NCBI GenBank assembly: GCA_032622095.1
Contig: CP136061.1
Coordinates: 198,694,935-198,758,934 of the forward strand
Source: Siphonodentalium dalli
Taxonomy: Eukaryota; Mollusca; Scaphopoda; Gadilida; Siphonodentaliidae
Direction of reading: 5' to 3'
DNA: 64,000 nt
Shown in pieces: positions 22,623 to 59,405 of the stretch. Every line of letters starts with the position of its first letter. Within the stretch, counting starts at the first letter, position 1. Position numbers and translations under genes: made by a program. Under the pieces are notes generated by a model. The model ran no database searches. It had not been told where the DNA came from and saw nothing but the letters and a program-made list of their open reading frames with translations.

Positions 22623-23172
22623 TTAGGAGACGAAATCTCTTGGAACATAGCTCGTATCTTGTTCTTTCCATGTGTTCGAATGATTATCGTCCTGGACTGG
22701 ACCACGGTTCAAATCTCTTGGAACTTCATATCCACAGCTCGTATCTTGTTCTTCCGTTGTTGCGTGGAGTGTGTTTTGGCTCAGATAGTCGACAGCTATA
22801 TAGTCATAGTTATTAGATTCTAATCCACACATTTGAGGATCGGTTGCATTTGGTGACGACTGTGTTGCACCTTTCAAATGATTATCGCCGTGGGCTGGAC
22901 CACGGTTCGAATCTCTTGGTACTTCATATCCAGCGCTCGTATCTTGTTCTGCCGTTGCATGGAGTGTGTTCTGGTAGTCGACAGATATATAATCATAGTT
23001 GTTTGACTTTAATCCACATATTTGAGGATCTGTTGCATTTGCTGCTGACTGTTTTGCATTTGGCAAATGTTTATTGTCCTGGCCTGATGTCTCACAAACT
23101 GTTAAATAATCTTGTCCACCTCGAGGAGAGTCTTTTGTTGATTGTCGCAGAGTTGAACATCGAACGCAGATC
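22623..23172 (-). CDS. Receptor gene, last exon: cytoplasmic tail with tyrosine-rich repeats
   Basis: The acceptor is tttccatttcaag|GATCTG at 23173/23172; the exon enters in phase 2, matching the phase-2 donor of the transmembrane exon (36757), and ends at a TAA stop at 22623-22625. The tail of about 183 codons begins ICVRCSTLRQ and contains two 66-residue (198-bp) repeats plus partial copies. Each has NNYDYI[SA]VDY, then a GYEVPRD[SL]NRG block, and NATDPQ[IM]CGL. Tyrosine motifs visible: YLTV, YDYI, YQN, YLSQ, two YEVP and a final SYVP just before the stop. YxxP is known to bind Crk/Nck-type SH2 domains, YxN Grb2-type and YxxQ STAT-type, so this is most likely a phosphotyrosine docking tail in the cytosol. 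There is no kinase or phosphatase domain. Which kinase acts on it is unknown. Confidence 0.75.
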
Positions 23173-23374
23173 CTTGAAATGGAAAACAAATATATAATTA
23201 CAATGTATATGTACCGTAGTGTGTTCAGTATAATTTAATTGTTATTTGTTACAGATGTCATTTCCGATAGACTTCAGTCCCGAGTATATTTCATCTAATT
23301 GGCTATAGTGTAACTTATGAACCAAACTCTTAAAATCCCATGTTCCCTTTAGTGACCACGAAGGTACTATACTT

Positions 23375-23690
23375 GTCCCGAGTTGATACTCGGGAGTGTC
23401 TGTCCAGGCAATCCACAGAGTGCCTGTCCAGGTACTCTGTGGTACCTATCTGGGTACTCATGAGTACCAAATATCCAGGTACTATGTGAAGTACCTGCCA
23501 TGTACTCTGGAGTACATGTCGATGAGCCGGGTAATCTGGAGTACCAAATAGCCATGTACTGTATGGATAACCTGCCCAGGTATACTCTGAAGTACCTATC
23601 CAGGTACTCCAGAGTACATGGTCAGGAACTGTAGAGTACCTGTCTGTGTCCTCCAGAGTACCTGTCCAGGAACCTGTACTGGTACGATGG
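23375..23690. repeat. Minisatellite of GGTACTC/GAGTACC words
   Basis: Tandem units of about 26 bases around 'cctgtccaggtactctggagta', each internally self-complementary. It lies in the last intron of the receptor gene about 200 bases from the tail exon acceptor. The open frame on the minus strand (23330-23698) follows the repeat and is not regarded as coding. Confidence 0.85.
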
Positions 23691-23983
23691 AGTAACAAAT
23701 TGTGATATTATGCTTTTGCCTGCACGGGGATTAAAATTTGTCTGAATGTCTGTAATAATCGACCAAATTTATGAATTTGTATGTATTAAGGTCAACTCTA
23801 TAAACCAGACATCTTACACCTTTAAATCAGTCAGACAAGGCTGCCAACCCGATGGCCCGCAGACGATCATATGCCTTCATAAAATATAGGCTGTAAAATT
23901 TAACAGTAAAATACCGAAAGTAGAGTTACCCCCAGTAATATACCGTGAAATAATCAGTACATTGTATATGTTCCTACATCGTA

Positions 23984-24173
23984 GCACAGGGCGTGTCGAT
24001 AAAACAAGTAAAATATAAATTAATAAATATATATAGTTAAACTGATCGTGCCAATTTAAAAACCTCTTCGCTATACATACATATGAATAGCGATGAGGTT
24101 TTAAAGTGGCGTGTTGTTTAAGTATTACATGTTTTAATTGAAATTGTACTCGTTTAGCGACACGCCCCTGTGC
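23984..24173. mobile_element. Foldback MITE, about 190 bp
   Basis: The left end GCACAGGGCGTGTCG pairs with CGACACGCCCCTGTGC at the right, and homology continues through 'aaaacctc.tcgctat' near the centre, so the element is an imperfect palindrome. No clear target duplication was seen. The superfamily is unknown. Confidence 0.65.
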
Positions 24174-24370
24174 CCCATAGATTTAAAATTTATACTGCAA
24201 AATTTACAGTATAGACTGTATTTCCCTATACCACAGTATACCATTATTTAGCAGTTAAGTTAAATTCGATCGACACAGAATGGCGCAAATACCTACTCTG
24301 TGTGCTCTCTTGCGGTTATTTGAATCACACGTCCATAAATAAAATGATTGGTGTATGCCATGTGGTTTAA

Positions 24371-24870
24371 AGGTACGGTTGGCCTTTGCAGTGGGTGTGC
24401 TGTGAAAATATTTCCACCGGTCAAAAACCGCCACAAACAGAAAGAATATTAAAATGTAGACCGACTTTGTCCGTATACAAATAAGAAATATCGCATAAAC
24501 AGTATGTTATTGTCATATGTTTGACCATTAATTGTTATGTAAACAAAGGCATAAAAAGTTACTTTCCTGGTGTTTGTTTATATTATGATGATAATCATAG
24601 AGAGCGTTCTTTGTTGCTGAATTCCTGATGTGGAACTAATAAAAAGCGTTTATATCATTTGTGTGTGATTAGCCAGTAACAATATGCTGTCTTCTGTGAC
24701 ACAATCATGCTCTTGCTTATGTAAAATATAGTAGATCTTTATGATAGCATGCTGTTTTCGCGATAGTCATGGTATATATGAACGAAACGGTATGCGTTTT
24801 AATGTTTTTTTCTGTTTACGGTGATTGGAACAAATATGAATATTTTCGACAACAAAGGCCTCACGTGCCT
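24371..24870 (+). mobile_element. TTAA-flanked MITE (Kolobok-like), copy 4
   Basis: A 500-bp copy with perfect TTAA on both sides (24367-24370 and 24871-24874), starting AGGTACGGTTGGCC and ending CACGTGCCT. Internal blocks match 6875-7368 throughout. It lies in the last intron of the receptor gene. Confidence 0.85.
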
Positions 24871-24874
24871 TTAA

Positions 24875-26640
24875 GACCAATGGTCCGTGTAGTAAAATTT
24901 TCCTCCATAATGTTACGCTCTACCGATAAGGCCCCGTTGTTTTCGGAAACAAGGCTTGGTCGAATTCACCCCAATTGATGGACAATACATTGGTCAAATT
25001 GAGGTTCCATATAATTAATAAGCTCACTAAAATATGACAATTAGTCAGTTTGTTGAATACTGCTTGATTCATTCGATACTTCAAATATGTTATTTCAGCT
25101 GAGGCAAACATGCAATAACGGTACAGCCATTGACATATGTACATGTACATATAGCCAGTAGGCCCACACACACATACATGAATGCAGCATAATGTTGAAT
25201 GAATGAGCATGCGTTGTGTATATATATATAAGCCATGAAAACACAGATGTAATGTTGATGCATGACTGAATGATCACAGACCAACTAACTGCATCTATAG
25301 TTGAAAATAATAAATTTCAAGCACGATATTAAATTACGGGTAATAGTTTTTTCGATCATTCTAAATCATACGAATCGGGGCTCTCATTTAAAGACAGATG
25401 AACAGGGCTATCACACTTATCACTCAAATTTATGTAAATGTAAAACATTTGAATTTCAATATGTTTATTTCCCATTAAACTGTAAAAACAGTGTTTGGGA
25501 ATATAATACATAATATAACAGGCGGGGTATACATTGACATATATAATATATACATAATTGTTACGAGGTTACAAAACGAAAGTGGATTCTCTCTCCTTTA
25601 AGTATTAGTATATAACTTCGACTTACAAGTAATTAACCGAACAATTTGGAGATGACCAATTTTCATTTCATCCCGACAGAGTTATTATTAATAATTTCAA
25701 TAACAAGCATATTGATCCACTTTATTATTGGATATGGTCAACACATTTTGCTGGTATAATCATAATATCAATACAATTTCTGGTATAATGGGAAAACTTC
25801 AGATAACTTATTTTTTTCCGACTCCATCGTTTTATACTACATATATGCTGCTTTATAAAGAACAAGGAGAGAGAGACCACATTTTTAGAGTAAATTCATC
25901 AATATATAATCACACACGTAAAATTTCTATAATTCAGATTTCACAATGAAATATTTACCCCGGGTGAAAAAGGAATTTGGTAGGGGTCACTCCCACTGGT
26001 GTATATACGGTATGTTTCTGATCGAAAAGGGGCATTACATGCAATTGACTTAATTTATCGATGAGGGAGGTATCACCATATATAGTAAGTTTAGTTAAAT
26101 GGACACCAGGCCATTCGACGTGGGTTCAAACGAAATAAAATAAAGTTTATAAAAGTCTGTGAAATAAGTATTTCCAAGTATACATGTAACACCAGACATC
26201 AGCAATAATGTATCCAGATAACTCTACATACTCTACAGTTCAATGCCGATATACTTCTATGTTTGTTTGCACCTCATGAACCACTGCGAATGTGTCAGGT
26301 CCCTTTAAAATATTTTGTTATGTAGTCAATAGAGTTATATCTCCTCCTACACACCATGGACTCCTTATTCGTCCGACTTAAAGTTGTGCTCTGTAAATTT
26401 ATGAGGAGGAATGAATTTGTTAATCGAAACAATTAGGGTAGTGACGCACGTTCCAAATTAGTTGACAATAAGGAGGGGATGGATCGTTCTGCGTTTTATA
26501 CAGAACGGTTTAAATTTTGTCTCACGCTAGAGACAATTAATACATGGTGATATACACCATTGTCTGACGGGGGGGGGGTCCACTGTTAAGTGGTCTGTTG
26601 CTGGATAGCTATGTTCATTTGAACGATAAATTTATATACG
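24875..26640. other. Intron sequence, no feature recognised
   Basis: Part of the large intron between the transmembrane and tail exons. The small frames (25090-25284 and others) coincide with ca/ta-rich simple sequence. A 9-base G run lies at 26570-26578. Confidence 0.45.
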
Positions 26641-26685
26641 TTATGTAACACTTGATGTTTCTTATTTCTTAACAGTAAAGATGCC

Positions 26686-29600
26686 TTATGTGCACTCGGC
26701 CGTGTATAGTAAAATTTGGCGTACATGTTGAAGAACCGGACAAACTAGTAATGTATGGATTTCATCTCCCACTTGTTCGTTACAAAGTGTACATAGTCGG
26801 TCTCTAATTGGAATTTCGGTGTTACTCCATGATTTAGTTTCGATCGCCAAGTAATGATTACGCGTTCTGAAGCGCATTATAGTTTGTGCCTCTGCTGTCG
26901 TAAGCTTGAAAATGTAAGTCTCAGTTTCAAACACTTCTTTAATTTCTCTGTAAAATAGATATTTATTGGACGATGCCATCGTTCTTCGCCAGTGGTTTAT
27001 ATACATATCTTTGAGTCCTGTTTTTGTCGTTTCTCGAAACCAGTTGAGGTTTACTATATTACGATAAAGCCAGACATGCATAAGGCCCATTTCATGTAGA
27101 GTATTTTTGACGAGACTTAACCAAGGGTGGGTGTATTCATTTCCAGGGCTGTTAAAATCGTTATATATTGTATGATACAAGACGAATGATAATTTAGATT
27201 TAGGTCCACTAACAAGCCTCGCCCAGTAATTTAAAATTCTATGTTTAATTTTAAACCCAATCGGTAGAAGGCCCAACTCGCCATATACACAAATAGTCGG
27301 TGTCGAACTTTTTAACTTTAAGATATACTTCCAAAACCATAGTTCCGTTTTTCCAATCTGGTCAATATTTTCCGTACCCCAAATTTCACATCCATATATA
27401 AGCACTGGTACCACCGTTTTTTCATATAATTCAATTATGGTGGACAGGCTGAGCTTAAGTTTTCGCGTCTTCCATATGAGGGAAAACATTGATCGCTTCG
27501 CTTCCTCGCACCTACGTTTAATTTCGGAGTTAAAAGATCCAGATTTGCTGAATATTATGCCTAGATATTTGTATTCCTTTGTCGTTTTAATTATTTTACC
27601 ATCAAGCTTGAAAATCCTACTGTGCTTTCTATTATGTCCGCAAATGACTACGGCGCTCTTTTCGTTATTAATTTTCATCTTCCAACGGGAACAATACCTT
27701 GTATATATATTCATAACTTTTTGTAATCCTTTTTTTGTCTTAGCAAATAAGACTGTATCGTCTGCATACAGGAGGCAAAATAACTTAACTAACCCGAACA
27801 CTGCAGTTTCGCTTAAATCGGAAATTTGGATTCCATTTATTTGGTTTTCGGTCATAAAATTTTCAAGGTCGTTCAAGTAGATGGAAAAAAGTATCGGGGA
27901 TAAATTCTCACCCTGCCTCAAGCCAATATCACAGGGGAAACTTGGAGAACATTGGTTATTATTAGTTACTCTAGATTTAACTCCATCATAAATATTCATA
28001 ATTACATTTAGCACTTTTCCTGTTATACCAATATCAAATAGTTTGGTCCAGAGTCCGACTCGCCACACATTATCGTATGCTTTTGATAAATCTATAAAAG
28101 CGCAGTATAAACTGGTATCTTTTTTCTGAGTGAGTTCAATAAGGCACTTCAAGGTAAACATGTGATCGACTGTTGAATAATTCTTACGAAAACCAGCTTG
28201 GTTCTCGGACAAGAGATGATTTTGTTCTAGAAATATATTGATTCGGTTACTGAGAATAGATGTAAATAACTTCGCGATACAGCTTACCAACGTGATAGGT
28301 CTATAGTTTTCTGGCAGCATAGAATCCTTAGCTTTGTAAATCGGTTGTATTAGGCCTATACCCCACTCGTCGTGGATAATACCACAATTGAGAATAATGT
28401 TAAAAAAATTTAAATATATAAATTTCATTTTGTGGAATGTCGATTTGATATACTCATTTCGAATAGAGTCTAGTCCACTGGCCTTCCCATTTTTTAGGTT
28501 TCTAACTGCAAGTTCTATTTCATCAGTTGTAATCTCAACGTCTAAACAACAAGTTTTCGTCGGCGGGTTGAAGGTGTCAATATCTGATGTATCAGATCTA
28601 TTTTGATCACTAAAATATTCATGAAACTGTTTTATTGAAGGAGTTTGTTTTGTCTTGTTTCATTATCAGCATCCCTTAGAAGTCTCCAATACTCACGCGG
28701 CGATTTAGTTTTCATTTTAGAAATGTTTTCACGCATATCATAATCATATTCTTTTTTTGCATTTCGCAATGACCGCTTATATTTTCTACGCGCGTCAATC
28801 ATACGTTGTCGATTATTTTCATTCGGCTGTTCCCTATATGTTTTGCAAGTTTTTCGGTAGGATTTTCTAAATTCAACACACAAACCTTTATACCACGGTT
28901 GGCATCTTCGTTTTCAAGATTGATATTTGGGATTTGGCATTTTTGTGCCCAGACTCTGTCTCGCGGCTCCACAATAAAGATTTTTCAATAAGTTATTTGC
29001 GTTTGAGATGTCATCATGTGTTATACAATTTCCATCTATAAAAGCGTTTTCTAATGATATAAGTTTTTCCATAAGATTGGTAGTTTCTGTTGAGCTAAGG
29101 CTATCAACAAAGTACCCTGACCTTTCATCGGTCCACCGGTTGAAATTTACATTACGCGTTTCGTACCCACGTTCGGGTATTTCCCCGCATAAATCCCCTA
29201 ACTGTTCACGTGATTGGGAAAACCCATCGTCAGTACATTCCGCGACAATACACAATGCCAGGGGATTATGTGCGTCGCTGAGAAGTTCATTGTAATCACT
29301 CACCATGAAGTCCGCTACAAACTCGAGAGCACCAGGAGTAAACAACAAGTAATCAATGACACTCACGTCTTTGCATGTCACGTGTCCCAATCCGCAGTCC
29401 CAACCCAGACGACCGTTGCCAATATAAAGGTCAGCACGCCCACACAATGAAATCAAACGGTAACCGTAATTATTTGTACGTTTGTCCTGAGATGCACGCG
29501 GAGTGAGATTTTGAATGGTCGTCGACTCATCATTTGTTGCATGATCAATCAATTTGGCTGTTCTTGAATTAAAATCACCAATCATAAGAATATTGTCACA

Positions 29601-30035
29601 AACTGCCCTTACTTCAGCCAGAGACATATAAATAATATCAAAACAGTCACCGGAACTATATCTAGAGCCTTCCGGGGGAATGTAAACATTGCCTAATACG
29701 AGTGACCGTTCGGGTCCAAATTTCAACATAAGCCAGGTGACATATTCACATTTAAATTCCATAATTTTGACAAGGCACATCAACTCGGTTTTAATCAAAA
29801 CACATATTCCGCCCGATCTATAACCAGTTACTGATTTTCTGTTCTGAATGATTACTGTTGTGTACCCTGGGATCTCGACTTTGTCGACATCATCAGTTTT
29901 ACATTCCTGAAACAACAAAATTTCATAAGAACACACATAATCCAAAAATTCAGGATCAATTAGTTTGCTTCTTATACCACACACGTTCAATGACAACAAA
30001 TTTATGGTTGTCAGCTTCACGTCGCCCCCTCTGTC
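26686..30035 (-). pseudogene. LINE ORF2: endonuclease plus reverse transcriptase, two lesions
   Basis: The N-terminal part is an APE-type endonuclease: LSLNVCGIRSK, LLFQECK, GDFNSRTAKL and SVIDYLLFTP are visible, with SDAHNPL as the SDH-like motif. An in-frame TGA at 28914 interrupts it; the linker (28883-28632) continues in the same frame, and the RT is in another frame from about 28640. The RT shows NYRPITLVSC, QAGFRKNYST, FIDLSKAYD, GLRQGENLSPIL and the catalytic YADD, then a C-terminal LCTLC...H...C zinc-knuckle-like segment. It would nick DNA and copy the element RNA at the nick. No in-frame ATG lies near the endonuclease start: the frame is continuous with ORF1 except for one TAG. The clade is not assigned. 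Confidence 0.85.
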
Positions 30036-31181
30036 CTATGCATTCCTCTCCCCAAACATCCCTTCAATATATTTATAGGGTGGGGGTTTTATATTTTCAA
30101 CAAGGCCACCATTTATGAATAGTTTGTCCCCTTTCACATTTGCTCTGTCGCCGTTTTTCTTTGCATCTTTCATTTTTGGTAGCAATACATCTTTCCTGTA
30201 TGTCTGCATTTCTTTCGGAAACTGCTCACTCATATAACATCCAGGAATGCCTTGTAGTTTTCCACCAGATTTCTTCACCATTTCACGTTGTTTGTTATAG
30301 TTAAATCTGGCAACTATGGGTCTTTTATCATTTGGGTTCCTCCTTGACCCAATACGATGTACGTTACCCAATGACACATCCTCTTTAACTCCCAGGCTGT
30401 TCTTAAAGAATTTCTTCAAAACATCTTCAGTTGTTATGTTATTTCTCTCATCTTCCGTTTCATCAACACCTGTGAATATTAGATTATATTTCATCGACCT
30501 AGCACGCAGATCCACAATTGACTCTTGTGCTTTTGCATGTTCGATTTTTAGAGTCTGCATTTCGGTTACCATCTCATCCTGCTTAGTTTGCATCGCTTGA
30601 ACATCTTCCATAAGTGCACCCTGCTCGAGTTCCATCTTAGTTGTCACACTTATCGCTTTGTCAGATTTACCTCTTGCTTCTGTCAAATCACTCCCCATTT
30701 GTACCATATTCCCTTCGACACCTTTGAGGCGACCATCCATTTCTTCAAACTTTTCATGTAAAGCATTAACAGAATCCAACCTTTTATTTATTTTGCACAA
30801 CATTTTGAGAATTATAGTGAATTGGCTCCCACTCATCGATGTGTTATAATCTCCGCTGGTGTCTTCATCGCCCAGTAGATTGGTCAATTTATCATACAGA
30901 TCATTGTTGTTATTACTACTAATCGCCTGCTGATCTAGGTCAGTGAATGTTTGCACATCGGGTAATGATTCGGGCGCATTCTTTCCAGAGGCATATTTAT
31001 TTTCAAAAGTTGGATGTGGGTGGTCTCCATTATTCAGAATAGAAAGTGAATCACCAATTACCTCAGAAAGAGAATCATCAAAACTTGAAACAGCGACATT
31101 TCCTCTCGGTGGCGGTGGCGTTAAATCCTGGCTGGCCTTTCGTTTGTTCGTATCCATATCCATCTTCTTCATTAAAGCCAA
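30036..31181 (-). CDS. LINE ORF1 protein (coiled coil plus RRM-like)
   Basis: 381 codons with ATG at 31181. The first 110 residues are polar and low-complexity. About 115-220 is heptad-like, rich in M, E, K and L (a coiled coil, likely trimerising). After that, MKYNLIFTGVDETEDERN, VHRIGSRR and RPIVARF form the RRM-like core typical of L1-type ORF1 nucleic-acid chaperones, followed by a basic C-terminus (KMKDAKKNGDRANVKGDK). Family role: binds the element RNA in the ribonucleoprotein. The frame ends in TAG at 30036-30038 and ORF2 continues directly in the same frame. Confidence 0.85.
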   Translation of the reverse strand: MALMKKMDMDTNKRKASQDLTPPPPRGNVAVSSFDDSLSEVIGDSLSILNNGDHPHPTFENKYASGKNAPESLPDVQTFTDLDQQAISSNNNNDLYDKLTNLLGDEDTSGDYNTSMSGSQFTIILKMLCKINKRLDSVNALHEKFEEMDGRLKGVEGNMVQMGSDLTEARGKSDKAISVTTKMELEQGALMEDVQAMQTKQDEMVTEMQTLKIEHAKAQESIVDLRARSMKYNLIFTGVDETEDERNNITTEDVLKKFFKNSLGVKEDVSLGNVHRIGSRRNPNDKRPIVARFNYNKQREMVKKSGGKLQGIPGCYMSEQFPKEMQTYRKDVLLPKMKDAKKNGDRANVKGDKLFINGGLVENIKPPPYKYIEGMFGERNA

Positions 31182-31813
31182 TTTTTACGTGGTGTTACAA
31201 CGGTTAATAAAACAATAATCCAATTTTGATGAAATATAATGAATTTTCCCTCGATATGGTCTTAAAAAAGAGTTTTACCGTGATGTTTCTCCCTCGACAT
31301 TTTGTTGACATCCGATACCCGCGCCTGCGCAGTCTCCAATTGACACACCGGTACTTGTTTCGTTATGAAAGTGTCCAGTCACAGGCGTGAAAGTGTCCTG
31401 ACACTCGTGTGCACATCCTGAATTTATTCATACTAGTAAGTGCACATCACATCCGTATATATGTACATGTATCATAACGGTATCAGTAACAGCCACAGAT
31501 AGTTGGATTGAAACATTGAAGATAGTTATAGCAAACTCCTTAACAACATGATCAAACGTGATCAATTATACTGCGTCCGACTGTTCACGGCTAATCTGCA
31601 TTTTTCATGTGATGTTTATATGATTTTGTTTAACTAATGATGCTAATACGAATGTCTGTCAGCTTGTTTAATAAACCGTACACACATTAGTAACTGAAAT
31701 ATTGTTTTGGGTGTTGTTAACTCAGTCCTCGAAATTAACTACGGCAAAAGGCGATGCAGTAGAAAACCCTGTTGAAGCCAATATTGAATATAGAATGTTT
31801 GCATATACTATTA

Positions 31814-31956
31814 GGGCCACTTTCTAATGGCGCTTCTGTTGTGCGCCGAAAGCGACAAAACATGCGACATTATGTTACATTTTGTCATTTCGGTGCGTGA
31901 ATAATATCGATTATGTCGCTTTCGGTGCACGCCAGAATTGTCATTATGAAGTTGCT
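31814..31956. mobile_element. Short MITE with TTA flanks
   Basis: A 143-bp imperfect inverted repeat: inner arms 'cgccgaaagcgacaaaa' and 'tgtcgctttcggtg', outer ends GGGCCACTTTCTAATGG and ...TCATTATGAAGTTGCT. TTA stands on both sides (31811-31813, 31957-31959), a 3-bp duplication as made by PIF/Harbinger-type elements. No coding sequence. Confidence 0.6.
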
Positions 31957-33355
31957 TTAATATTAATTCATACGCATGTCAAACAATTATAAAGCACTGC
32001 CATGGAAGTAAAATGTCAATTTCAGTTTTAAATTTTTAAATTTCAATTTGAAAATAAAGTTACCCCTGGTTTAGATATGGTATTTATCACTTGAAAATTT
32101 TGGTGATTGGAAATGGCGCCAAAAACGTCTAACGTTGAGGCCGTTATATTCCAGTAATTTTGCTGGTGGAATGGTTAGAATTGGTTGACGGAAAGAGGAG
32201 TAAAGCAATTTACAACTAGCGTACCGATGCGACGAAATTTTCCGCTTCGTTCAGCTGCTTCATTTTAAATTAGGTAGATGTGTCAATTTTAAAGACGTAA
32301 ACATGTGAAATTAACCTATTTTGGTTGTGCAAAAGAAATTTACAGAACACTGTAACAGAATATGAGTCGGAGGAATATATATTTAGAGCCGAAAGGAACA
32401 TTGACAATTGATATATAAAGTAAAACGCGGATATTTGAACTTCAGAGCTTAGTTGTGCAATTAGCTGCATTAGACATTAATTGCATAATAATTAGTATAT
32501 GTTTGTTCCACGGTATTGATATAAAAGGCCAGTTAGGGTCCTTACACAATACATTAGAACGGTCTTATCTCAGTCGTAACATCCTTTGTGCACAACGCAT
32601 TTTATTTGCAAACTCAAAACAATATTTGTGTGAATTATCAAACACCACATTTCTCGATTGTTACGAAACGGTGGGGTACATAAAAGGAGTGTTTTGTGAG
32701 TCTTTAAGGGAGCGGTGGGTGACAATTTTAATTGTTGAGTAATTCGTGGTTCTATGTGTGCCAGTCGTCTCATCGCTGAGCGAGTAACAATTGTGGAAAT
32801 AACAAATGTGACGCACCCTCAGCCAGAAAGAACACATAATTATGGAACTTTCCATTGTATAATGCATACAATTGCACCCACGATGTACGTACGTTACAAC
32901 TACGTTTCTGTACTGAGCTCTATGCAGTTCAAATAGCCACTCTTTATTGTACATCAGTTGACAATTTCCTTTCGGCTAGACATTTCTCCGAATTCACAAG
33001 AATAATTTTCCTTATGTTTCGTGACAATCTGTAACAGATGTTAATTTCTTTTGCACCACTAAAACTTGTTAGTTTCACATTTAGCGTTCTTGAAATTAAC
33101 ACGTCTACTCTAATTAATAACGAAACCAAACATTTGGCCGCATAGCACAATGCGACCGGCAAACTGCCAGGAAAATAGCTGCTCAAATGATGTATGCGTT
33201 CACTGATCCAAACTTTGGAAGTTTTATTTTCTAAAAAGCGAGGATTCCAACATAAAATTAACTCTTTTAACTGGACTAAAGAATATACGCGTACACTTAG
33301 CCATGTCCGTGATTAAGGAGTTGCGTTTTTACTCCTTTGTCGGATAACAAAACAG
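31957..33355. other. Intron sequence, no feature recognised
   Basis: Several overlapping open frames on both strands (32455-32954) but no domain, repeat or splice pattern that supports one. It lies in the large intron between the transmembrane and tail exons. Confidence 0.4.
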
Positions 33356-33512
33356 CAATTGTTGTCACCCTTGTTTTCGTGAGACACGGGGATTTGTCCC
33401 CGCTCTCGACCTGGAATGTCACCTTCGGGCCTGGGGGCCCTCATCCGGTGATATTCCAGGTCGAGAGTGGGCCACAATTCTCCGTGTCTCACTCAATCGC
33501 GGGCGACAACTG
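33356..33512. mobile_element. Foldback MITE, about 157 bp
   Basis: The ends CAATTGTTGTCACCC and GGGCGACAACTG are inverted, and inside them 'gtgagacacgg', 'ccgctctcgacctggaat' and their complements form a long hairpin with a GC-rich loop near 33420-33445. It is entirely non-coding. The open frame at 33337-33528 runs through the hairpin and is rejected. Confidence 0.7.
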
Positions 33513-34404
33513 TATATTATCATTGTAGACCAAATACTATCAAATTAAACGAACTGTTTAACTGTAAGCAAAGACAAACTTAGAAAAACATGTCTTTACT
33601 GATTATACAAAAAATTATTTAAAAAAACGTTAATTGTGAGGCATACATTAAAATCCGACATTTGAACTACCATGGGTTGTTCTCAATCCGCAGTTTATTA
33701 AATTAAATGTTTACCGTCCACAGCTTTGACGTTTTTCGCCTATATGAAATACACTGATTAATGTATTCCATTCATGCTCTGCATGTTGTATCACACTTAA
33801 TGAGTTGAGTGAATAAATTGAAATTGAATTGGGGCGCACCATCAGGAACGCATATACATAAACCATACATATGATGTTACCAGATCTTGCATTTGGTATA
33901 AATAAATCGGAGCGTATGTTTAGATTGGGAACGTCAACGTCGCCCTTTAGGCATCGACATACAACATTTCATAAATGGCGAGGAAATATATCCACTGATG
34001 TTGATCTACAATAATGTCAATATAATCACCAAAATTACGCAAGAGATTTGTATCGCTCAAATAGCGGCCACATCAGCCTATTCTCCTGAAAAATAAGTTT
34101 ATATCTAACTTATTTCAATTATCGGAATTATTTGTATCTCAATTAAACTCTGTTCACCTGAATCGATTTACCAGATATACGGTCTTTATAATGCGTAATT
34201 TTCATTTTGGCCCGGGTCATAATACGAAATAACGAGTATAAATCCACTATCGTTTTATTTCAGAATCAAATACGTCCATTATGATCACATGTGAATACGT
34301 AGGTCCAATATGAACATATTTACGCGATGATATGTTGGTCACATATCATCTAGACAATAATATTGTATGCTTCAGATCTCGCCGTCGGCTGAAGATAACA
34401 TCTA
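33513..34404. other. Intron sequence, no feature recognised
   Basis: AT-rich sequence without a recognisable exon or repeat boundary. Confidence 0.4.
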
Positions 34405-36690: not shown

Positions 36691-36756
36691 AGACATTCAC
36701 AAATACAGATATATATTCTTGAAGCTGACGTTACCAATCTAAACATCACCACTAAC

Positions 36757-36829
36757 CTTCGACGAAATACAACAAGCACAGTGATGCAAACAATCACAAA
36801 CGCTGCGACAACACCGCCCACGATTGCAC
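36757..36829 (-). CDS. Receptor gene exon: transmembrane helix
   Basis: The acceptor tttgtttcctacag at 36830 enters in phase 1 and the donor CGAAG|GTTAGT at 36757/36756 leaves in phase 2. It encodes GAIVGGVVAAFVIVCITV followed by LVVFRRR: a glycine-rich start, an uninterrupted hydrophobic helix of about 22 residues and a basic stop-transfer cluster, giving outside-to-inside topology. The preceding exon supplies the Ser/Thr stalk and the next exon (23172-22623) the cytoplasmic tail. Phase 2 at this donor is matched only by the tail exon acceptor among the candidates I saw. Confidence 0.75.
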
Positions 36830-38608: not shown

Positions 38609-38611
38609 TTA

Positions 38612-38856: not shown

Positions 38857-38860
38857 TTAC

Positions 38861-38977
38861 CTGTGTTTATCGATTGAGAGACTTCACTGCTTTCTGTGAC
38901 TTCGTTTGTGGTAGCGACGTTTGTGGTAGAATCAGTATATGCTGACACTTGAGTCGTCGTCTGCATCGACTGCTTGT
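38861..38977 (-). CDS. Receptor gene exon: Ser/Thr-rich stalk
   Basis: The acceptor cggcttgtttccccag at 38978 and donor ACACAG|GTAAAG at 38861/38860 bound a 117-bp exon, phase 1 on both sides (39 codons). The peptide KQSMQTTTQVSAYTDSTTN continues with Thr, Ser, Glu and Val: a probable O-glycosylated stalk holding the ectodomain off the membrane, just before the transmembrane exon. The donor is completed by a transposon insertion (38612-38856). Confidence 0.7.
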
Positions 38978-45408: not shown

Positions 45409-45409
45409 A

Positions 45410-47000: not shown

Positions 47001-47009
47001 GATACGTAC

Positions 47010-47306
47010 CTCGAGGATGTGAACATTTATATGAAATGCAGAACTCTTCGCAGTGTTGTAGCGTTGTATTTTTTAGACGTCCACTCATCTGTCCTTCAGT
47101 ACACTTTGTTTTCTCTTCGCAAATTATTTTAACTGTCGATGTAATTTCATACTTGCAAGCTAGAATATTATTTGCTACTTCAAACGTTCCACACACACCA
47201 TCCTCGTCACTCGGTGTTCTGCAGGTAACATTACTGACTTGCAGCACCTGACCATTTGCGCATGCCACCAACTCATCGGTCGACAGACACTTTTTGACAT
47301 TATCGT
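47010..47306 (-). CDS. Receptor gene exon: cysteine-rich extracellular module
   Basis: The acceptor ttttgtaacag at 47307 and donor CGAG|GTACGT at 47010/47009 bound a 297-bp exon: 99 codons, phase 1 on both sides, so it is a shuffling-competent module. Ten cysteines are visible, in the blocks KKCLSTDELVACANGQVL, NVTCRTPSDEDGVCG, ILACKYEITSTVKIICEE and KTKCTEGQ, ending HCEEFCISYKCSH. The spacing around GQVL and KIICEEKTKC loosely recalls galactose-binding (SUEL-type) lectin modules, but the match is weak and I do not assign it. It follows the MAM domain directly. Two N-x-T sites (NVT, NTT) support an extracellular location. Confidence 0.75.
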
Positions 47307-47921
47307 CTGTTACAAAATTAAAGAAAATATATATTTAGAATGAGGTTATGAGCGAATAAGCATGTATCTTTACATACACAAAACTAGTATCACTAACACT
47401 GCTCGTATAGATCATAACGAAACCATGAATACAATCATGTCACGGCCATGAATCTCATTTGTGTTGTGACTATAAATACACAATATTTTCAATCTTATAA
47501 ACTAATATGCTGACTACATTAACTTGGTGCCAAAATGTTTCTCGCCGGACTATTTCTAATGACGACTGACTCTGACTCAGACTGACTCGTTCAATAACCG
47601 TGATCGCATGGTGAGACAAGTTGATGCATGACACCGCAATCCAGATATATAATAGTGTGGGGGAAATGAGACAAAAACTGGTTCATTGTATCCTTTAAAA
47701 AGAACGCTAGGCATATATGAGTAAAATAGAGGCAATGCATGTATACTATGAACATCGGGATGGGTTGAGCAATATAACGCCTTTGGGTTGAATGCATTTT
47801 CATAAGCGTGTGTGTAATCTATAAACACGAGCTTCGCGTATGTCGTTGTATCCACGTGCATATAACTGTAAATTAATGTGACCATCTGGAAAGTATTGTC
47901 AAGTTCACAACTAGCACGTAC
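47307..47921. other. Intron between MAM C-terminus and Cys-rich exon
   Basis: A 615-base intron in phase 1, the shortest apart from the one between the stalk and small Cys exons. The overlapping minus frames at 47577-47885 have no domain. Confidence 0.6.
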
Positions 47922-48009
47922 CTATAACACAAGCGTCTGGTGATATTGAAAGATCATCAATAGCGATGTCCCCTAGATTACCTTGTCCGCGCACTCCATG
48001 GATAGAAAT
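47922..48009 (-). CDS. Receptor gene exon: MAM domain C-terminus
   Basis: The acceptor 'ctttatttag' at 48010 enters in phase 0, matching the phase-0 donor of the upstream MAM exon (56455). The donor ATAG|GTACGT at 47922/47921 leaves in phase 1. The 88-bp exon encodes ISIHGVRGQGNLGDIAIDDL and then SISPDACVI. The GxxGDIAIDD.s.s...C pattern is the diagnostic end of MAM domains, including the last conserved cysteine. It is too short for ordinary gene prediction, but the motif is clear. Confidence 0.8.
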
Positions 48010-48910
48010 CTAAATAAAGAATCACCATGCACCATAACAAAAATGAAAACTATTGAAGTATATGAACTAGGAAACGGTAAAATATATCTACACGGCTTCC
48101 GGTGGTTTACATAATCAGGTCAGGCACATAATGAATGCCACTATTATAGTGGTATTCCAGTATTGTAGTGGTATATGACCATAAAATAGTCATGTTTCTT
48201 TTATTTGCGTCGAAATAGAAGAAGGCGCGGCGCATACCCAGTGCACAGCCAAATTTCACTCTTAACAATATCGCAGCGAATGAACAGTGTTCCGACAAAA
48301 TACGTTGTGCAATCTTTTGCGCCAGCTTTGTTATTCAATAATACTAATAATATTTGACTTAATAAATGACAATAACAGGGTGACTCATTCGCTACTTCAT
48401 AACAACATTAAAACTAATTGAATGCTACTTGAGTTGCTTATCGTGTTTAATGATTATTATCCTGGACAAAATATATGTATGATACCGATTTAGTGCGACA
48501 CTGATTTTGAGTAATTTGTGTGAAATATGATTTTGGATTATCCCTCTTTTATCAAACTCATAAAACGGTAATGGTCATATATCACTGTAATATTGGAATT
48601 CAGGATGTGCATGACCTGATAATAGACACCTTTCGCATAATGAACTACGACAGATACTTATTACGTATAGCTATTTGTAGTCGTATTTTTTTAGATGGTC
48701 CAAAAACCTTTTCGCATATATATATGATGTATTTGTGATTTGAAAATCCTAAACCGTAATCGTAACAACGTTTACGGAAAAACGACAACGAATAGAAAGA
48801 AAATAAATTCTAGTGACGCAGTATCTTATTCGCAATAATTATCAGTCGTCGTTCATTGTGCGAAAGGTGTTTAATATACTCTATTAAAATTCTTATTTTG
48901 AGTCGTCCCA
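48010..48910. other. Intron sequence, no feature recognised
   Basis: Part of the 8.4-kb intron inside the MAM domain. No exon was recognised; the minus frame at 48107-48298 and plus frame at 48520-48738 have no domain. Confidence 0.45.
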
Positions 48911-49537
48911 ATAACTGAAAAAATAAAACACAGAGTGTTGAACTACTGGTCACGAATAATAAATGGCAATAAGTCGAAATTATCATATGTACTATATGCT
49001 ACTATTCATAATATGCTCGATAGGCATAAATCAGGTTTTACTTGGATCCGGTATGTAAGAAACTTATTAAATGGACTAGGTATGTCAGACGTATGGCTAT
49101 CCCACAACACAATTAGCGAGAAATGGTTCAACAATGCAACACGACTTAAAATTCGAGATCAATATTTACATAATTGGCGGTCCTCGTTGCAATCATCTGA
49201 TAAATATAATTTTTATAAAACTATTAAAGATGAGTTCCTGACAGAAGAATACCTATCGATATTATCAACTAAAGAAGCACTGACACTTATGAAGTTCAGA
49301 ACGCGAAACCATCACCTACCCATAGAAACTACGAGCTGGGCAAATATGACTAACAACAAATCCTGCACCTTTTGTAGCAACGGAATCGGTGACGAGTATC
49401 ATGTGATGTTGATTTGCGAGAAATTCGATGAAAATCGTACTAAACTAATCCCCAAATACTACTATAAATACCCAAACAATTTACAATTACGCCAATTGAT
49501 GGAAACTACTAAAATACAGGTAATGCGCAATGTCTAA
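48911..49537 (+). pseudogene. LINE reverse-transcriptase C-terminal fragment
   Basis: 200 codons open from 48935. VLNYWSRIINGNKSKLSYVL, HNWRSSLQSSDKYNFYK, LTLMKFRTRNHHLPIET and a CTFCSNGIGDEYHVMLIC zinc-knuckle align closely with the C-terminus of the 26.7-31.2 kb LINE, so this is the same or a sister family. It is 5'-truncated, as LINE copies usually are, and antisense to the host gene in the MAM intron. A 14-base C run follows at 49588. Confidence 0.85.
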
Positions 49538-51480
49538 CATCTGATCAAAGCAATAATGTCTTCTACCTGAACGCTCTTTATCATCATTTCACCCCCCCCC
49601 CCCACATTGTCACAAGGAAGTACGCCCCACTAATCTCAGTGGGAGGACCATCATATACCTCCTACTGCGCCATGATGGTCTTTTTATTGTCTACTTAGAC
49701 ACCCGTAATGCACACGACAGTGTGCAAATTGGCGAGTCGGACTATTTTCCATCGATGACCCCCCCCCCCGCCACACAGGGCGTTCGCGTCCCTGTGTGGA
49801 CTCACCAAATGTCGTGGATATTATGTTCCATCACGCTTACGATATTTATCACGAATATTTTGAAGGATTAAAGCCTGGTGTATATAATAGTTACTGTAAA
49901 ATGTACCGTTGATTTATTATAATGAACACCATACTCACGGTGGTGCAACTTGAAGCATTCCAGCGTTTTCACCCTAACCTCCCGACTTTCGTGAACACAG
50001 CCACAACATACCACTGACCCATATTTCAGACGGTGATTCCCCGAACAACTCGAATGCAATCACGTGACATTGATATTTTATTGTGGGATCATCGAATGCG
50101 TGAAATAGTACCTGACGCGTGCCACTCAGTTGACCTGAGCACGATGTTTACAGGATTCGCTTGATCCTCACTGAGCACGCAGGATTTACTTGATGTGGAC
50201 ATGCACTTGATGCGATGGGGTCTATTAGCAACGGTGTCTCTGTCTGTTTATTTGAAGCCCGGCTTTATTCTAAACATTATTATTCGAATACATCCACAAC
50301 TTCGACCTCAAGTTATATGCTGATTAAAACATACAATGCAGATTTTGTCCATACGTTTTTTTCTCTTTTTTTTCCAAATTCAAAGTTATATCTGTGGCTC
50401 ATGTGCCCCATCGTCTCAAGTCAACATTTATGTATATGCATGTCGCTATGACAGTATTCCTGTGTAAATGACGCGAGTATCAAAGTATCAAATAAATAGA
50501 TAGTCTTATATATAGTATCGGGCACATCCACCCTGTTTTGGGTGGATGTGCCTTCAATGTATGCATTAACATTAATATTACATATTCTATAAAATATATT
50601 TATGTACCTGTTAAATGTGCTTTTGTCATATATTTGTATTTGAATCTTGTATATCTCATATATCATGATTATTGATTTATTGAGATTAAAGAATTGAATT
50701 GAGATATGTTGACATAATTGCGAATGTGACCCCCCCCCCCCCCAACCCAATCTTGCACTTAATGTTAGCTTCCATTTTGCCCCCTCGATGTACATATACT
50801 TAACGTGACGTGTACACGGCCAAATATGACAGTTTTTGTTCGTAATCAAATCTCAATCGCTTATATAATACGTTAATCTGTTCTCTTGCTAACACACTGT
50901 GTGAGTCGGACAATACTGACTGTATATAAGTCAGAGTTAAATGGACAATAGACTGTACATTCGGAAAATAGAAGTCGAGCCCAAAGGGCGCGCGTTCTTC
51001 TAGTTTCCGAATCCATCAACCGACTTAAAACACCGTTTTGAAATATACAAAGATGAACTACTTTCATATCAATGAACAATTCCGATCCTTGAGACATATA
51101 CGATTTTTTTTTTCGGTATAAAAACAGTCCTTGACTGAGAAAAAATCCACGTCCCTTGACATGCGGTTTGTGTTAATGGAGGTTGCATGCGTGTGCACTT
51201 TGCCGTGAACACAATTGTAGACATATATTCTGGTAGAACTCGAAACTACACTCTTTAAAATTTGAAGATATATAAGCGTGTCACGTGTTTTATTACAATT
51301 GGTTTATAAATATACGGATTATGTGTTTATTTGCAAAATATGAAATCGCTAGTGTTTATAATAAAACACTCGACATGTTTTAAACATTATTATTAATTCA
51401 TCTACAAATTAACTTTTAAAAATATACATATGTGGTAATAACTTAGCTTAGACAAATATTTATGCCTAATTGCACTTGTT
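49538..51480. other. Intron sequence with poly-C runs
   Basis: C runs of about 10-16 bases at 49588, 49757 and 50729. 51280-51420 holds TGTTTAT/ATAAACAC words related to the 54.4-54.7 kb minisatellite. No exon is supported. Confidence 0.45.
50521..50552. other. Perfect short hairpin
   Basis: GGCACATCCACCC-tgtttt-GGGTGGATGTGCC: a 13-bp perfect stem with a 6-base loop, flanked by AT-rich sequence. It may be the end of a Helitron-like repeat or a relic palindrome; nothing decides its role. Confidence 0.6.
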
Positions 51481-51487
51481 GTGTATG

Positions 51488-53085
51488 GTATATAAACACT
51501 GAGGTTTTTGTTCTTGTAAATTTAAAAAACGTCAGTGTTTATGACTACGCAAGACCGACTTCTCCGATCAGATCAAATTACAATCTGTAAAAGCATGCAT
51601 ATTATTTTGACTGTATCGGTATTGACGACAAATAGCCACAAAATATCTGTCGTGATTCACATTTGGCTGATTAAGCTATTCTCTTACACTTGGTGCTCAT
51701 AAACCTCGACCGTCATAAATACAATGTCATCATAAACATGCATTGTGCGGGAGTCCCGTGAGTGACCAGACAGACAATACTTTCGTCACCTAACTTCGTC
51801 TTGAATGTCGATCTATTGAGCGCTTTTATTAATTAGCTTTCTGACTCCATGCTTTCAGTCTCCACTTGGGGTAAAAAAAAGTTTAGCCAAAAGTTTAGCC
51901 AAATGAAATTTTTATTAGCCAAATTCGAAAAAGATTAGCCATTGGCTAATTTGGCTACCGACAGCGTGAACACTGCCGATCTGCAGCATTCTGTGATTTA
52001 TCTATCAAATAGTCTGATGTGTGTAATACAATATCATTGATATGTTATAATGCAATGACCTTTGGATGCAATAGCATCTGTGCTAAGTTACCATGCATGG
52101 AAAGCCAGTTAATTTTGGCCTCATTTAAATCACACTCTGCATTGTGTCTGTTTGCTGTATCTATTTGGATGTGATGTTTATAACGCAATGTTCAATGAAT
52201 TCTTCATAGAATAACAGTCTTCTTGGATTTTATGGTATCGTGAAATTGAGGTAAGTTTATATCTATGGTATTAGCAAGAAGTAATGGAGATAGAATCGCT
52301 CTATATCGAAATGAAAAGGATATAGTTTCATATGTGTCATATCAAATGGATAGGAAGACACTATCTAAATTCCAAACTCTCTCAGTAACGCGTGTATCAT
52401 TTTGAGTTGCAAGAATATAGAATCCGTTTTGGGGGCTGGACTTACCAGTGGTAAACAAAATTCAAAGCGGCACATTAGTTTAAAACCCTTTATTTTAAAA
52501 TCAGTATTACTGACCGTATATTATGTATCGGTCTTGCACGTACAGGTTGGTGAATGTCCAAGTTCGCAATTGCATGATTTAAGTGACTTTGGTGAGCGAT
52601 TTTGATTTGCGTCTCTTACAATGATTGCATTTATCTCGTGTATTAATCAATCCAACGTTCCCTGCATTAGTTGTTCAATGTTATAAAGTTCGCTGTCAAC
52701 ACAAGTAAGAATATTAAAAAGTGTCCGTGTTTTAAACGGTTTATAATATGATCGCTATATACGGATGATCGAAGTTGCTGTTTGCTTTTCAGATATTTTC
52801 ACAAATGCTTAATTGATTAATTTTAAATCTTCATTGTTTTAGGATTCTGTATGACGATACAAGATTACGTGGGTCGGGAAAGGTAAGGACTAGGCGAGAT
52901 ATGCAGTTAGAGTACACAAAAGCAGGACCGGAGGAGCACACGAATTGTAACGGCATGGGCTGAGAGTTGAAACCATGATTTAAATATTATGAAGAGCATG
53001 CAGTGATAAAATGAAACACAAGCTTTCCACAGACATTCCATCAGTGATGTGATGATCAGTCCTCTTGTTCTCAAAACAGAGCCGT
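51488..53085 (+). repeat. Segmental duplication, copy 1 (with 0.4-kb extra segment)
   Basis: 51488-51566 and 51970-53085 match 53092-54282 closely, in direct orientation and the same order ('tataaacactgaggtttttg', 'atttatctatcaaata', 'ttctcatagaataacagtc' style blocks). The segment 51567-51970 is absent from copy 2. It contains five 'ttagcca' words and 'ggctaccgacagcgtgaac', like the end of a transposon. Frames inside show no domain. Confidence 0.8.
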
Positions 53086-53091
53086 CAAGTG

Positions 53092-54282
53092 TATAAACAC
53101 TGAGGTTTTTGTTCTTGTAAATTTAAAAAAACGTCAGTGTTTATGACTACGCAAGACCGACTTCCCCGGCCTGCAGCATGCTATGATTTATCTATCAAAT
53201 AATCAGCTGTGTGTAATACAATATCATTGATATGGTATAATTCAATGACCTTTGGATGGAATAGCATCTGTGCTAAGTTACCATGCATGGAAAGCCAGTT
53301 AATTTTGGCCTCATTTAAATCACACTCTGCATTGTGTCTGTTTACTGTATCTATTTGTCTGTGATGTTTATAACTCAATGTTCAATGAATTCTTCATAGA
53401 ATAACAGTCTTCCTGGATTTTATGGTATCGTGAAATTGAGGTAAGTTTATATCTATGGTATTAGCAAAAAGTAATGGAGATAGAATCGCTCTATATCGAA
53501 ATGAAAAGGATATAGTTGCATATGTGTCATCTCAAATGGATAGGATGACACTATCTAAATTCCAAACTCTCTCAGTAACGCGTGTATCATTTTGAGTTGA
53601 AAGAATATAGAATCCGTTTTGGACTCACCAGTGATAAACAAAATTCAAAGCGGCACATAAGTTTCAAACCCTTTATTTTAAAATCATTATTACTGACCGT
53701 ATATTATGTATCGGTCTTGCACGTACGGTTGGTGAATGTCCAAGTTCGCAATTTCATGATTTAAGTGACTTTTGTGAGCGATTTTGATTTGCGTCTCTTA
53801 CAATGATTGCATTTATATCGTGTATTAATCAATCCAACGTTCCCTGCATTAGTTGTTCAATGTTATAAAGTTCGCTGTCAACACAAGTAAGAATATTAAA
53901 AAGTGTTCGTGTTTTAAACGGTTTATAATATGATCGCTATGTACGGATGATCTAATTTGCTGTTTGCTTTTCAGATATTTTCACTAATGTTTAATTAATT
54001 TATTTAAATCTTCATTGTTTTATGATTCTGTATGACGAGACAAGATTACAGGGGTCGGGAAAGTTCAGGACTTGGCGATATATGCAGTTAGTGTACACAA
54101 AAGGAGGATTGGAGGAGCACACGAATTGTAACGGCATGAGCTGAGATTTGAAACCATGATTTAACTATTATGAAGAGCATGCAGTGATAAAATGAAATAC
54201 AAGCTTTCCACAGACATTCCATCCATGATGTGACGATCAGTCCTCTTGTTCTCAAAACAGAGCCGTCATGAAAGTGTTAAGA
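53092..54282 (+). repeat. Segmental duplication, copy 2
   Basis: A direct copy of 51488-53085 without the 0.4-kb segment. Differences are scattered single bases and small indels, so the duplication is fairly recent. It ends at 'ctcaaaacagagccgtca' in both copies. Confidence 0.8.
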
Positions 54283-54379
54283 AACAAGAGTTAACCAACG
54301 AACATTTTGGAGAAGGTGTTGAACAATTTGTTGAATTGTACCGGAATTTGTTTTTGAGAATAAAATATTTATAAACACA

Positions 54380-54740
54380 TCGGGTTTTTTTATTTTCATA
54401 ATAATAAACACGTCATAGTGTTTATTAAGTATGTCTGGAAAATAAACACGTTGAGTGTTTATTATAAAACGCTATAACATGTTTTAATATAAACACTAGT
54501 GTGTATATATTCCTAATTGGATGGAGTGTTTATTTTAAAACACTATGATATGTTTTGATATAAACACTGGTGTTTATTCATAATTGGATGGAGTGTTTAT
54601 TATAAAACACTGTGACATGTTTTTATATAAACACTGCTGATTTAATTATAAAACACGTGTGTTTTTACTAAAACATATCACATGTCTTTTAAGTGTGTCT
54701 TTCATGTGTTTTTAATTACACGCGTTTATAGGGAATTATT
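54380..54740. repeat. Minisatellite of TGTTTAT / ATAAACAC palindromic units
   Basis: Three to four units of about 70-75 bases: 'ggagtgtttattataaaacac', 'atgacatgttt', 'tatataaacactggtg', 'taattggat'. Each half is the complement of the other, so single strands could fold. Related words occur at 51280-51560 and at the start of both duplication copies. Confidence 0.75.
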
Positions 54741-56454
54741 TCTTACAGTGTAAACATACGCAAACATGTAATACACATATATGTGATTGTGTCTAAATGT
54801 GCGGGAGACTAGACTACCTCTCTATATATAATCTATTCCGTGCACATTTAATTTACTAGACTATCTCTATATATAATCTATTCCATGCACATGAATTTAA
54901 TACTGCACTATTTATATGACATAATGATTGATAATCTGCATAACTGCACTCAGTGTCATTGAATGACGCTAATTGAAGAGCGGACTCTTTATCGTATACA
55001 TGATTGTGCGTAAATTTGCGCTGTACATAGCGTAGTATGTATATGATAATGGTTGAAAACTGTACAATATTTCAGGGAATGGATCGATCGAGGCCATAGG
55101 CCGATATCGTTTCATTCCCTGAAATAATTTACTAATTTACATTTTGAAGCTACTATATCTGACATGGCCGAGTCCATTTGTTTGATACGTCACCTCTTAT
55201 CAGAATGGATTAATCCGAAATTGGGTCAAGACACCTGAGTTGTACCATGTGTTCGGCCCAATCCACTCGCTCATTGGCTGCACGTATGGCGTAACATCTT
55301 AACCCATTGTCAACTTAATGACATGCAGTAGCCTACACCATTGCTTTCCGACCGTCGAATGAACACGACGTACCGACAATGAGCTCCTTCTGCGATAGAT
55401 TTGCGAATATCATCTGCAGTTCTGCCCTTACATTTCGGCATTTGTATTAAATTATTTATGCGGCATATTTCGGATTTTGCGGAGAATTATACATTTGAGG
55501 TGGTTTGAGATCGCGGGTAATACTGAAGATCGAAGGACTACATTTACATGTAAATTACTATATCAGTTTAGATTTTATCGTGAGGGTGCTACAATGCCAT
55601 CCGGGAACGGAATTAGATTCGAAAAAATTTAAGTTGAAAATTCAATGCCTATTCGTGAAACGACATGTCTGGAATTTGAAGTTATACACCCACCCTCCCC
55701 GAACCCAAATGACGAGGTTCTATATATATATATATATATATATATCTCTTCTGTCATGTTCTGGTAATCAATAAGAGCGATGTTATACGTTAGAACCGTT
55801 GTCTATAGATAGCTCCGCGCATATACATCATGGTTTCATATATGCAAGTCATATCAAATGAAATCGTCCACACGTAAAATAAAACCGTTCATTAAATTGG
55901 ATATTGAGCGACCGTTATTAATATCATGGATCGTTGTTGCCAAATTATTGTACAATCTCGACAATAACCATCCATTATCCTATAAACTGGACTCGATGAA
56001 CAAATGAGTGACGTCATAACCATGTTTTAAAGATGAAAATTATATACTATCGACTCAATTATCTGTATTTTTGGCAATGCATTCATATCGTTTAATCCAG
56101 CGGAACAGTAACTCTATTACTGGAGTGTCGCATGACATGTCATCTTTAAATGCGACATGTGCCCTCTTATATGCAAATGATCAGCACGATTCTGTCGAAA
56201 AGGACATTGATTACGTGGGGTTCACAAACTATATATGAATGTTTATTTTGTGTGTGCAGGTTTAGTAGCGAACTAGTTCTCTGTTAGAGGTCTCCGTGGG
56301 ACCTCACTGTGTATAAATTAGAATAAAGCATGGTATAAAGTGTCCATTCAGAAATATAAGTTCGAGGTAGAACAAAGGAGCTGGGTTTTAAGGGTATTTA
56401 CATGTGCTTTGCGATTTGTGCGATTCTATTTTTAGAAACCAACCATTTACTTAC
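54741..56454. other. Intron sequence with a hairpin and an AT microsatellite
   Basis: 55068-55126 is a long hairpin (ATTTCAGGGAATG ... CATTCCCTGAAAT with a nested ggcc-ata-ggcc core). 55722-55745 is (TA)n. No exon was recognised. Confidence 0.5.
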
Positions 56455-56714
56455 CGTGTAATCCGTCGTTGATTCTAGCTCCATGACTGCTTTCTTCCAC
56501 GTACTCGCTTGCTCACCAGATCTTGAGAACAGCGGAACTATCTTCGTATTATAATCTTGATAGACCATAAGCTCCCCAATATATGTACCATGCATATGAT
56601 ACCACATGGTGAAGCACTTGATTGACCTGTCGTATATTCTTGCGGACCTCAAGATTGCCACATCTCCCTCTTGGCGTGGATCACTTGATTCTATGTAACC
56701 ATACCACCCGTCAC
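56455..56714 (-). CDS. Receptor gene exon: MAM domain, main part
   Basis: The acceptor ctacatgtgtacatgcag at 56715 enters in phase 1; the donor TACACG|GTAAGT at 56455/56454 leaves in phase 0. The 260-bp exon encodes GDGWYGYIESSDPRQEGDVA, LRSARIYDRSIKCFTMWYHM, HGTYIGELMVYQ and SGEQASTWKKAVMEL. The pattern (GYY.Y.es, A.L.S, CftmwYHM.G..iG.L.V, sG.q...W) is a MAM domain, an extracellular adhesion or dimerisation module of about 160 residues. The N-terminal C.FE...C.W part should be in an upstream exon, which I did not find in the window. The intron that splits the domain is 8.4 kb and has been invaded by a LINE fragment and the 51-54 kb duplication. Confidence 0.85.
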
Positions 56715-59380: not shown

Positions 59381-59405
59381 CGTGACGATAGCACACAATT
59401 TTACA

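Follow-up and report, generated by a model that had tools for sequence, protein, structure and literature searches.

Receptor-type tyrosine phosphatases of the MAM (mu/kappa) kind have a MAM domain and a single transmembrane (TM) helix, the tail of neuropilins is short, and SR-CI contains a Ser/Thr-rich stalk. The allorecognition receptors of Botryllus and Hydractinia are clustered, single-pass proteins with divergent haplotypes, the known ones bearing immunoglobulin (Ig)-like or other ectodomains. Class C scavenger receptors carry two CCP domains (PMC5222524). Here we analyzed a stretch of 64,000 nucleotides (the window), C1:198694935-198758934 of the nine-contig, 2.23-Gb genome of the scaphopod Siphonodentalium dalli, and found six exons of a receptor-like gene on its minus strand. 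We consider it reasonably probable, judging from sequence, that these exons make up roughly the 3' two-thirds of a gene from a clustered family of single-pass, non-catalytic cell-surface receptors that would signal via phosphotyrosine docking.

The six exons run from position 56714 down to a stop codon ending at 22623, with AG/GT sites and agreeing phases throughout. Once spliced, they give 1,385 nt encoding 460 residues and a stop, and the frame is open all along. They are listed here with the evidence for each in brackets, part of which comes from gene A, the L028 gene and a mirror copy of the window gene, all located elsewhere in the genome and described below.

56455..56714, minus strand: exon E1, phase 1-0, middle part of the MAM domain (Pfam MAM match and splice sites)
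47922..48009, minus strand: exon E2, phase 0-1, end of the MAM domain with a GDIAIDD motif (gene A exon 79% identical)
47010..47306, minus strand: exon E3, phase 1-1, Cys-rich module of 99 residues with 10 Cys (splice sites and relatives in the genome)
38861..38977, minus strand: exon E5, phase 1-1, short Ser/Thr-rich stalk (identical in the mirror copy)
36757..36829, minus strand: exon E6, phase 1-2, transmembrane exon, GAIVGGVVAAFVIVCITVLVVFRR (like-phased exons in gene A and the L028 gene)
22623..23172, minus strand: exon E7, phase 2-stop, tail with two YDYI...YEVP units and 10 Tyr in 182 residues, stop TAA

Pfam revealed a MAM domain in the window protein (PF00629, E=7.1e-21, 75.1 bits, profile positions 43-157 of 158) and no match to a catalytic domain. 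The E1 protein was 94, 80 and 70% identical to its three closest copies. E6 was the sole minus-strand 1-2 exon in the window with a donor score of at least 7 and a hydropathy above 2.5; no 1-2 exon on the plus strand of the window reached these thresholds, and none of that grade occurred in any of ten first-order Markov resamples of the window. Nor was a second TM exon of comparable quality found between E1 and E7. An earlier note on this DNA had placed the start and the end of the gene at exactly these coordinates, and its MAM domain, unassigned Cys-rich module, Ser/Thr stalk, single TM helix and tail of repeated Tyr motifs lacking a catalytic domain were all found again, as were its exon phases, which recur in the same order in paralogues.

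Of the seven exons that it had counted, six were recovered with AG/GT sites and their phases, and the seventh was not reproduced by exon scans. A scan of three phase-1 introns for 1-1 exons gave 35 candidates, none of them credible between E3 and E6. A donor score of 7, shared by all five donors of the exon set, was reached by only two candidates, both in the E5-E6 intron; these were neither Ser/Thr- nor Cys-rich and were unmatched in paralogues. The candidate at 46728-46609 was 82% identical to gene A in amino acids, yet all seven differing codons were nonsynonymous and gene B had a frameshift and a stop, and for these reasons we read it as intron. Four candidates lay in the E2-E3 intron, none with a donor score of 7, one of which (47745-47599) aligned with gene B at 56% with a gap. 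Other matches of candidates to gene A were mostly in the opposite orientation and resemble repeats common to both loci. The window contained a single Ser/Thr-rich stretch between 36 and 47 kb.

The single gene claimed by the earlier note stands in its core, but it is one member of a clustered family and is incomplete in the window, as shown by the MAM match, which starts at profile position 43; the first third of the domain lies outside, as would any signal peptide. Family members occupy C1:196.2-198.9 Mb, and there are outliers at C1:91.3 and C1:234.7 Mb. Gene A lies on the plus strand at C1:197.197-197.255 Mb. There, a DNA match to a first MAM exon and two further MAM exons are followed by a Cys-rich exon 83% identical to E3, another Cys-rich exon, a putative Ser/Thr exon and a TM exon of phase 1-2 that begins with GAVVGG; the tail exon starts in phase 2 and gave no catalytic match. 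Gene B, on the minus strand at C1:198.228-198.25 Mb, is collinear with gene A over ten blocks at 71.6-88.5% identity. In the L028 gene (C1:196.354-196.388 Mb), two Cys-rich exons come with a tail and with a TM exon, bearing GAIAGG, of the same 1-2 phases; none of the 150 MAM matches listed fell in this gene. Gene A and the L028 gene repeat the exon order and phases, and therefore the order inferred for the window recurs in other genes.

The Cys-rich module is confined to this cluster in our genome search, where E3 gave 13 matches, the window included, all within C1 196.4-198.75 Mb. E3 and its relatives have ten Cys in common and an I/V-S-Y-x-C end. Against Pfam and PDB sequences E3 had no match, only chance-level rows, and for E3 and six relatives the SUEL profile listed none at E<=10, in a search whose HMMER filters drop most matches above 0.1. 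One module of the L028 gene matched SUEL lectin at E=0.0027, a score that misses the Pfam cut-off. A single-sequence AlphaFold model of E3 was too poor (predicted local distance difference test, pLDDT, 52.7), and the fold search yielded no match at E<=0.001. We infer that the module may be a distant SUEL-type fold.

To characterize the tails, 19 of them were collected. In type II tails, invariant columns numbered 13 of 16 for Tyr versus 80 of 221 for the other residues (Fisher p=5e-4); the test used four of the nine tails, one per lineage, and the window tail is of another type. A second, overlapping set of four type II tails gave 9 of 12 Tyr columns versus 49 of 161 (p=0.003). The ratio of nonsynonymous to synonymous substitution rates (dN/dS) was 0.30-0.66 in 12 of 14 tail pairs, and the motifs NYDYI, GYEVPRD, NYFxLE, YGYxHLP, EYxHI and YSYGNF recur. 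We rejected a reading of the tails as carriers of immunoreceptor tyrosine-based inhibition or activation motifs (ITIM or ITAM), ITIM being present in four of the 19 (L028, L030, L042 and L043) and absent from the window tail. With several conserved tail Tyr, as judged from type II tails, and without a catalytic domain, the window protein appears to fit the phosphotyrosine docking kind. The Tyr-rich, non-catalytic tail of the earlier note is borne out; phosphotyrosine is a prediction from conserved motifs.

According to this model, the MAM and Cys-rich ectodomain would cluster the receptor upon binding either a ligand or a similar receptor of a second cell. A Src- or Syk-type kinase would phosphorylate the tail, and the phosphorylated sites would dock SH2 adaptors; presumably, the YEVP of the window tail suits an SH2 of the Crk or Nck type, and the YGN of other family tails suits Grb2. 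Phase-1 introns between the modules would allow the exchange of ectodomains onto different tails.

The cluster itself has a mirrored arrangement. The tail query of the genome gave 27 match rows. Eight plus-strand tail exons lie on C1 at 196.2-197.6 Mb, and each of them has a minus-strand partner; the order of the partners is reversed, with five of them at C1:197.88-198.72 Mb and the three outer ones at C3:71.13-71.32 Mb; the L029 tail at C1:198.927 Mb has no mirror partner. The window gene and its mirror copy are 98.6-99.4% identical over three stretches containing E1-E6, and about 95% identical around the tail. The other seven mirror tail pairs are 87.7-94.4% identical, the figure for the L028/L030 pair (92%) covering 181 of 240 residues, beyond which L030 departs. 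Relatives of E3 at 30-34% identity number six on one arm and three on the other. The simplest reading would be two divergent haplotypes joined head to head, one end of which was wrongly placed on C3. It is somewhat unlikely that the mirror copies arose instead by a genuine inverted segmental duplication, part of which moved to C3. Such a duplication would agree with the unrelated control locus L038 (C1:165.3 Mb; one locus only), which is single-copy over its full length, bar the first 166 bases, a repeat, so that the doubling is local rather than assembly-wide. It would also agree with the lack of N runs in the stretches fetched, which include the 30 kb upstream of the window and leave aside the centre of the mirror. 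However, the complete set of eight reversed-order partners, with the outer three on C3, speaks for haplotypes, and the C3 piece carries a 99% identical first MAM exon that is absent on the window side, as a retained split haplotig would. Taking the haplotype reading, we view the window gene as an allele of one gene in a cluster of variable receptors. MAM matches in mirrored opposite-strand pairs were also observed at C5:20.45-22.77 Mb, C1:248.54 Mb and C1:251.84 Mb, hinting at more retained haplotypes or inverted duplications.

Genes A and B are each other's counterparts in the mirror arrangement. Identity between them is 88.7% for the tails and 86.5% for the Cys-rich exons, but only 67.5% for the MAM exon (dS 0.78, dN/dS 0.26). 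At the DNA level, the MAM exon of gene B and its flanks match the window gene, or else the mirror copy, at 93-95% identity, and by these alignments gene B is a mosaic whose front resembles the window gene and whose back resembles gene A. The MAM exons of A and B could diverge while their tails stay alike because MAM cassettes are swapped between neighboring genes. On this basis, we suggest, tentatively and with considerable doubt, that the C1 cluster is a hypervariable locus for self/non-self or pathogen recognition, in which MAM cassettes are swapped via phase-1 introns onto conserved Tyr-docking tails. If true, the cluster would form a receptor system that shuffles ectodomains and tails and has no relation to the Ig-based ones. 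Ratios above one for the MAM exon in two pairs (dN/dS 1.30, p=0.64, for the window versus gene B; 1.77, from six nonsynonymous changes and one synonymous, p=1.0, for the window versus its mirror copy) were not significant and were discarded as evidence of positive selection. More generally, the receptor cluster may be used to recognize microbes or other cells; invertebrate recognition systems often sit at such clustered loci.

In order to find the missing front of the window gene, we employed a profile of 14 first MAM exons taken from loci on C5 and C7. It detected such an exon upstream of gene B (E=4.4e-14) and upstream of the mirror copy (E=3.6e-11), both ending in phase 1 as E1 needs. Farther upstream of gene B, at C1:198.261 Mb (L060), there is a second, weaker match (E=2.9e-4), and gene B or a neighbor may carry a second MAM domain. 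The first-exon DNA of the mirror copy occurs four times in the genome, namely as itself, at C3:71061456-71062006 (99%), in gene B (94%) and in gene A (71%). Around E1, the window aligns with gene B at 93% up to position 59170, where a retroelement bearing reverse transcriptase starts. The window gene contains two such insertions:

59171..64000, plus strand: retroelement (RVT_1) that separates E1 from the 5' part of the gene, running beyond the window to at least 66.2 kb
25456..31337, minus strand: long interspersed nuclear element (LINE)-type element in the last intron, about 5.9 kb, with a reverse transcriptase open reading frame at 26689-28659, not present in the mirror copy

The E1-E2 intron measures 8.4 kb in the window gene versus about 0.2 kb in gene A, and the 34-kb span of the window gene is inflated because repeats were inserted. 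Within the retroelement at 59.2-66.2 kb we noted a tandem direct duplication of 1.76 kb, 99.7% identical (62200-63958, and from 63955 on into L032).

Several observations weigh against the reading as a docking receptor. With the 14-exon profile, nothing significant was found for a first MAM exon in the window or in the 30 kb upstream, and the window gene's own first MAM exon was probably assembled on C3. No signal peptide turned up for the window gene, although no dedicated search was made. The gene joins an A/B-type ectodomain to an L027/L029-like tail of another type, the second Cys-rich exon of gene A was not found in the window, and the mirror copy has an in-frame stop mid-tail, after the first YDYI/YEVP unit. 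As for the tail, acidic residues (D/E) at -1 to -3 accompany 104 of 157 Tyr versus 895 of 2190 other residues (41%), with a pooled p=5e-10 over ten of the 19 tails, but the pool uses homologous, overlapping sites, and of single tails one in five was significant; for the window tail alone the contrast was not (6 of 10 versus 65 of 169, p=0.15). Two tail pairs depart from the low dN/dS, at 0.86 (window versus L029) and 1.15 (L045 versus L049). ITAM (Yxx[LI]x6-12Yxx[LI]) was found in 0 of 19 tails, and YxxP occurs at most twice per tail, results that point to no particular adaptor.

Some of these features could also mean that the window copy is a decaying allele or a pseudogene whose relatives are functional. 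The stop in the tail of the mirror copy, the two inserted retroelements, a tail of 182 residues versus 240-265 in most family members, and the dN/dS of 0.86 for the tail against L029 and 1.30 for the MAM exon against gene B are in agreement with decay. We regard it as unlikely, however, since all six exons are open with intact splice sites, E3 has a dN/dS of 0.37-0.64, and the short tail with its VPRDFVS C-terminus is shared with the 80% identical L029 tail. It is fairly unlikely, too, that the tail Tyr are mainly endocytic (YxxPhi sorting), making this a phagocytic, scavenger-like receptor rather than a signalling one. Yxx[LIVM] accounts for 43 of 157 tail Tyr (10 of 19 tails), and class C scavenger receptors, with MAM and TM, take up bacteria and virus, as stated in PMC5222524; yet Tyr without a hydrophobic residue at +3 are conserved as well, for example in YGYS and YSYGN. 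Finally, a split into two genes, a MAM/Cys-rich one (E1-E3, near A/B) and the 3' end of another (E5-E7, near L027/L029), would explain why E1-E3 are nearest to genes A and B (70-83% in protein) and the tail nearest to L029 (80%) and L027 (57%), with no match to the A/B-type tail in the window, but is improbable given the lack of another TM exon of comparable quality between E1 and E7, the lack in the window of any A/B-type tail or second gene A Cys-rich exon, the lack of a credible extra exon between E3 and E6, the agreeing phases, and the mosaic gene B, which suggests that ectodomain/tail exchange occurs in the cluster.

Related sequences were also seen elsewhere. Outside the cluster, further tyrosine-rich tail exons of the family occur at C1:234650766-234868567 and at C1:91277328, the latter (C1:91.28 Mb) about 42 and 68 kb from two same-strand MAM exons. 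By a count made by eye, some 90 of the 150 MAM matches listed fall in a 0.4-Mb plus-strand array at C7:93421546-93804004, with open frames of up to 834 residues. The window further contains an internally repetitive block at 1986-4955, which is found again at two places near gene A.

If the reading as a member of a docking receptor family is right, the cluster would represent an apparently undescribed receptor family that combines a MAM domain, an unassigned Cys-rich module and a conserved-Tyr tail, and would differ between its two assembled copies, for example in having six versus three copies of a related Cys-rich exon. The earlier note had not recognized the architecture as that of a described family, and no description of it turned up in the portions of the literature searched, a scope that left out most subscription journals and all bioRxiv preprints.

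Compared with known systems, the MAM receptor phosphatases differ in that the window protein has no phosphatase, Ig or fibronectin match in Pfam. Neuropilins resemble it in their MAM domain, single TM helix and non-catalytic nature; they differ in that the window protein has no CUB or coagulation-factor match in Pfam and has a Tyr-rich tail. The SUEL/rhamnose-binding lectin proteins, compared by eye, share with the Cys-rich module a V/I-x-Y-x-C end and some of the Cys spacing, whereas the window module itself has no SUEL profile match. The allorecognition receptors of Botryllus and Hydractinia are alike in being clustered and single-pass and in divergent assembled copies, whereas the window family is known from sequence alone and has a MAM ectodomain. 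The class C scavenger receptors (insect SR-CI, shrimp MjSRC) have in common with the window receptor a MAM ectodomain, a single TM helix, a non-catalytic intracellular region and an invertebrate host. The CCP domains are theirs; the window protein has no CCP match, and 5' exons outside the window could hold one. In contrast, the Tyr-rich tail and the clustered family belong to the window family. The class C scavenger receptor may be the closest described architecture, and the receptor of the window may work like one without being one.

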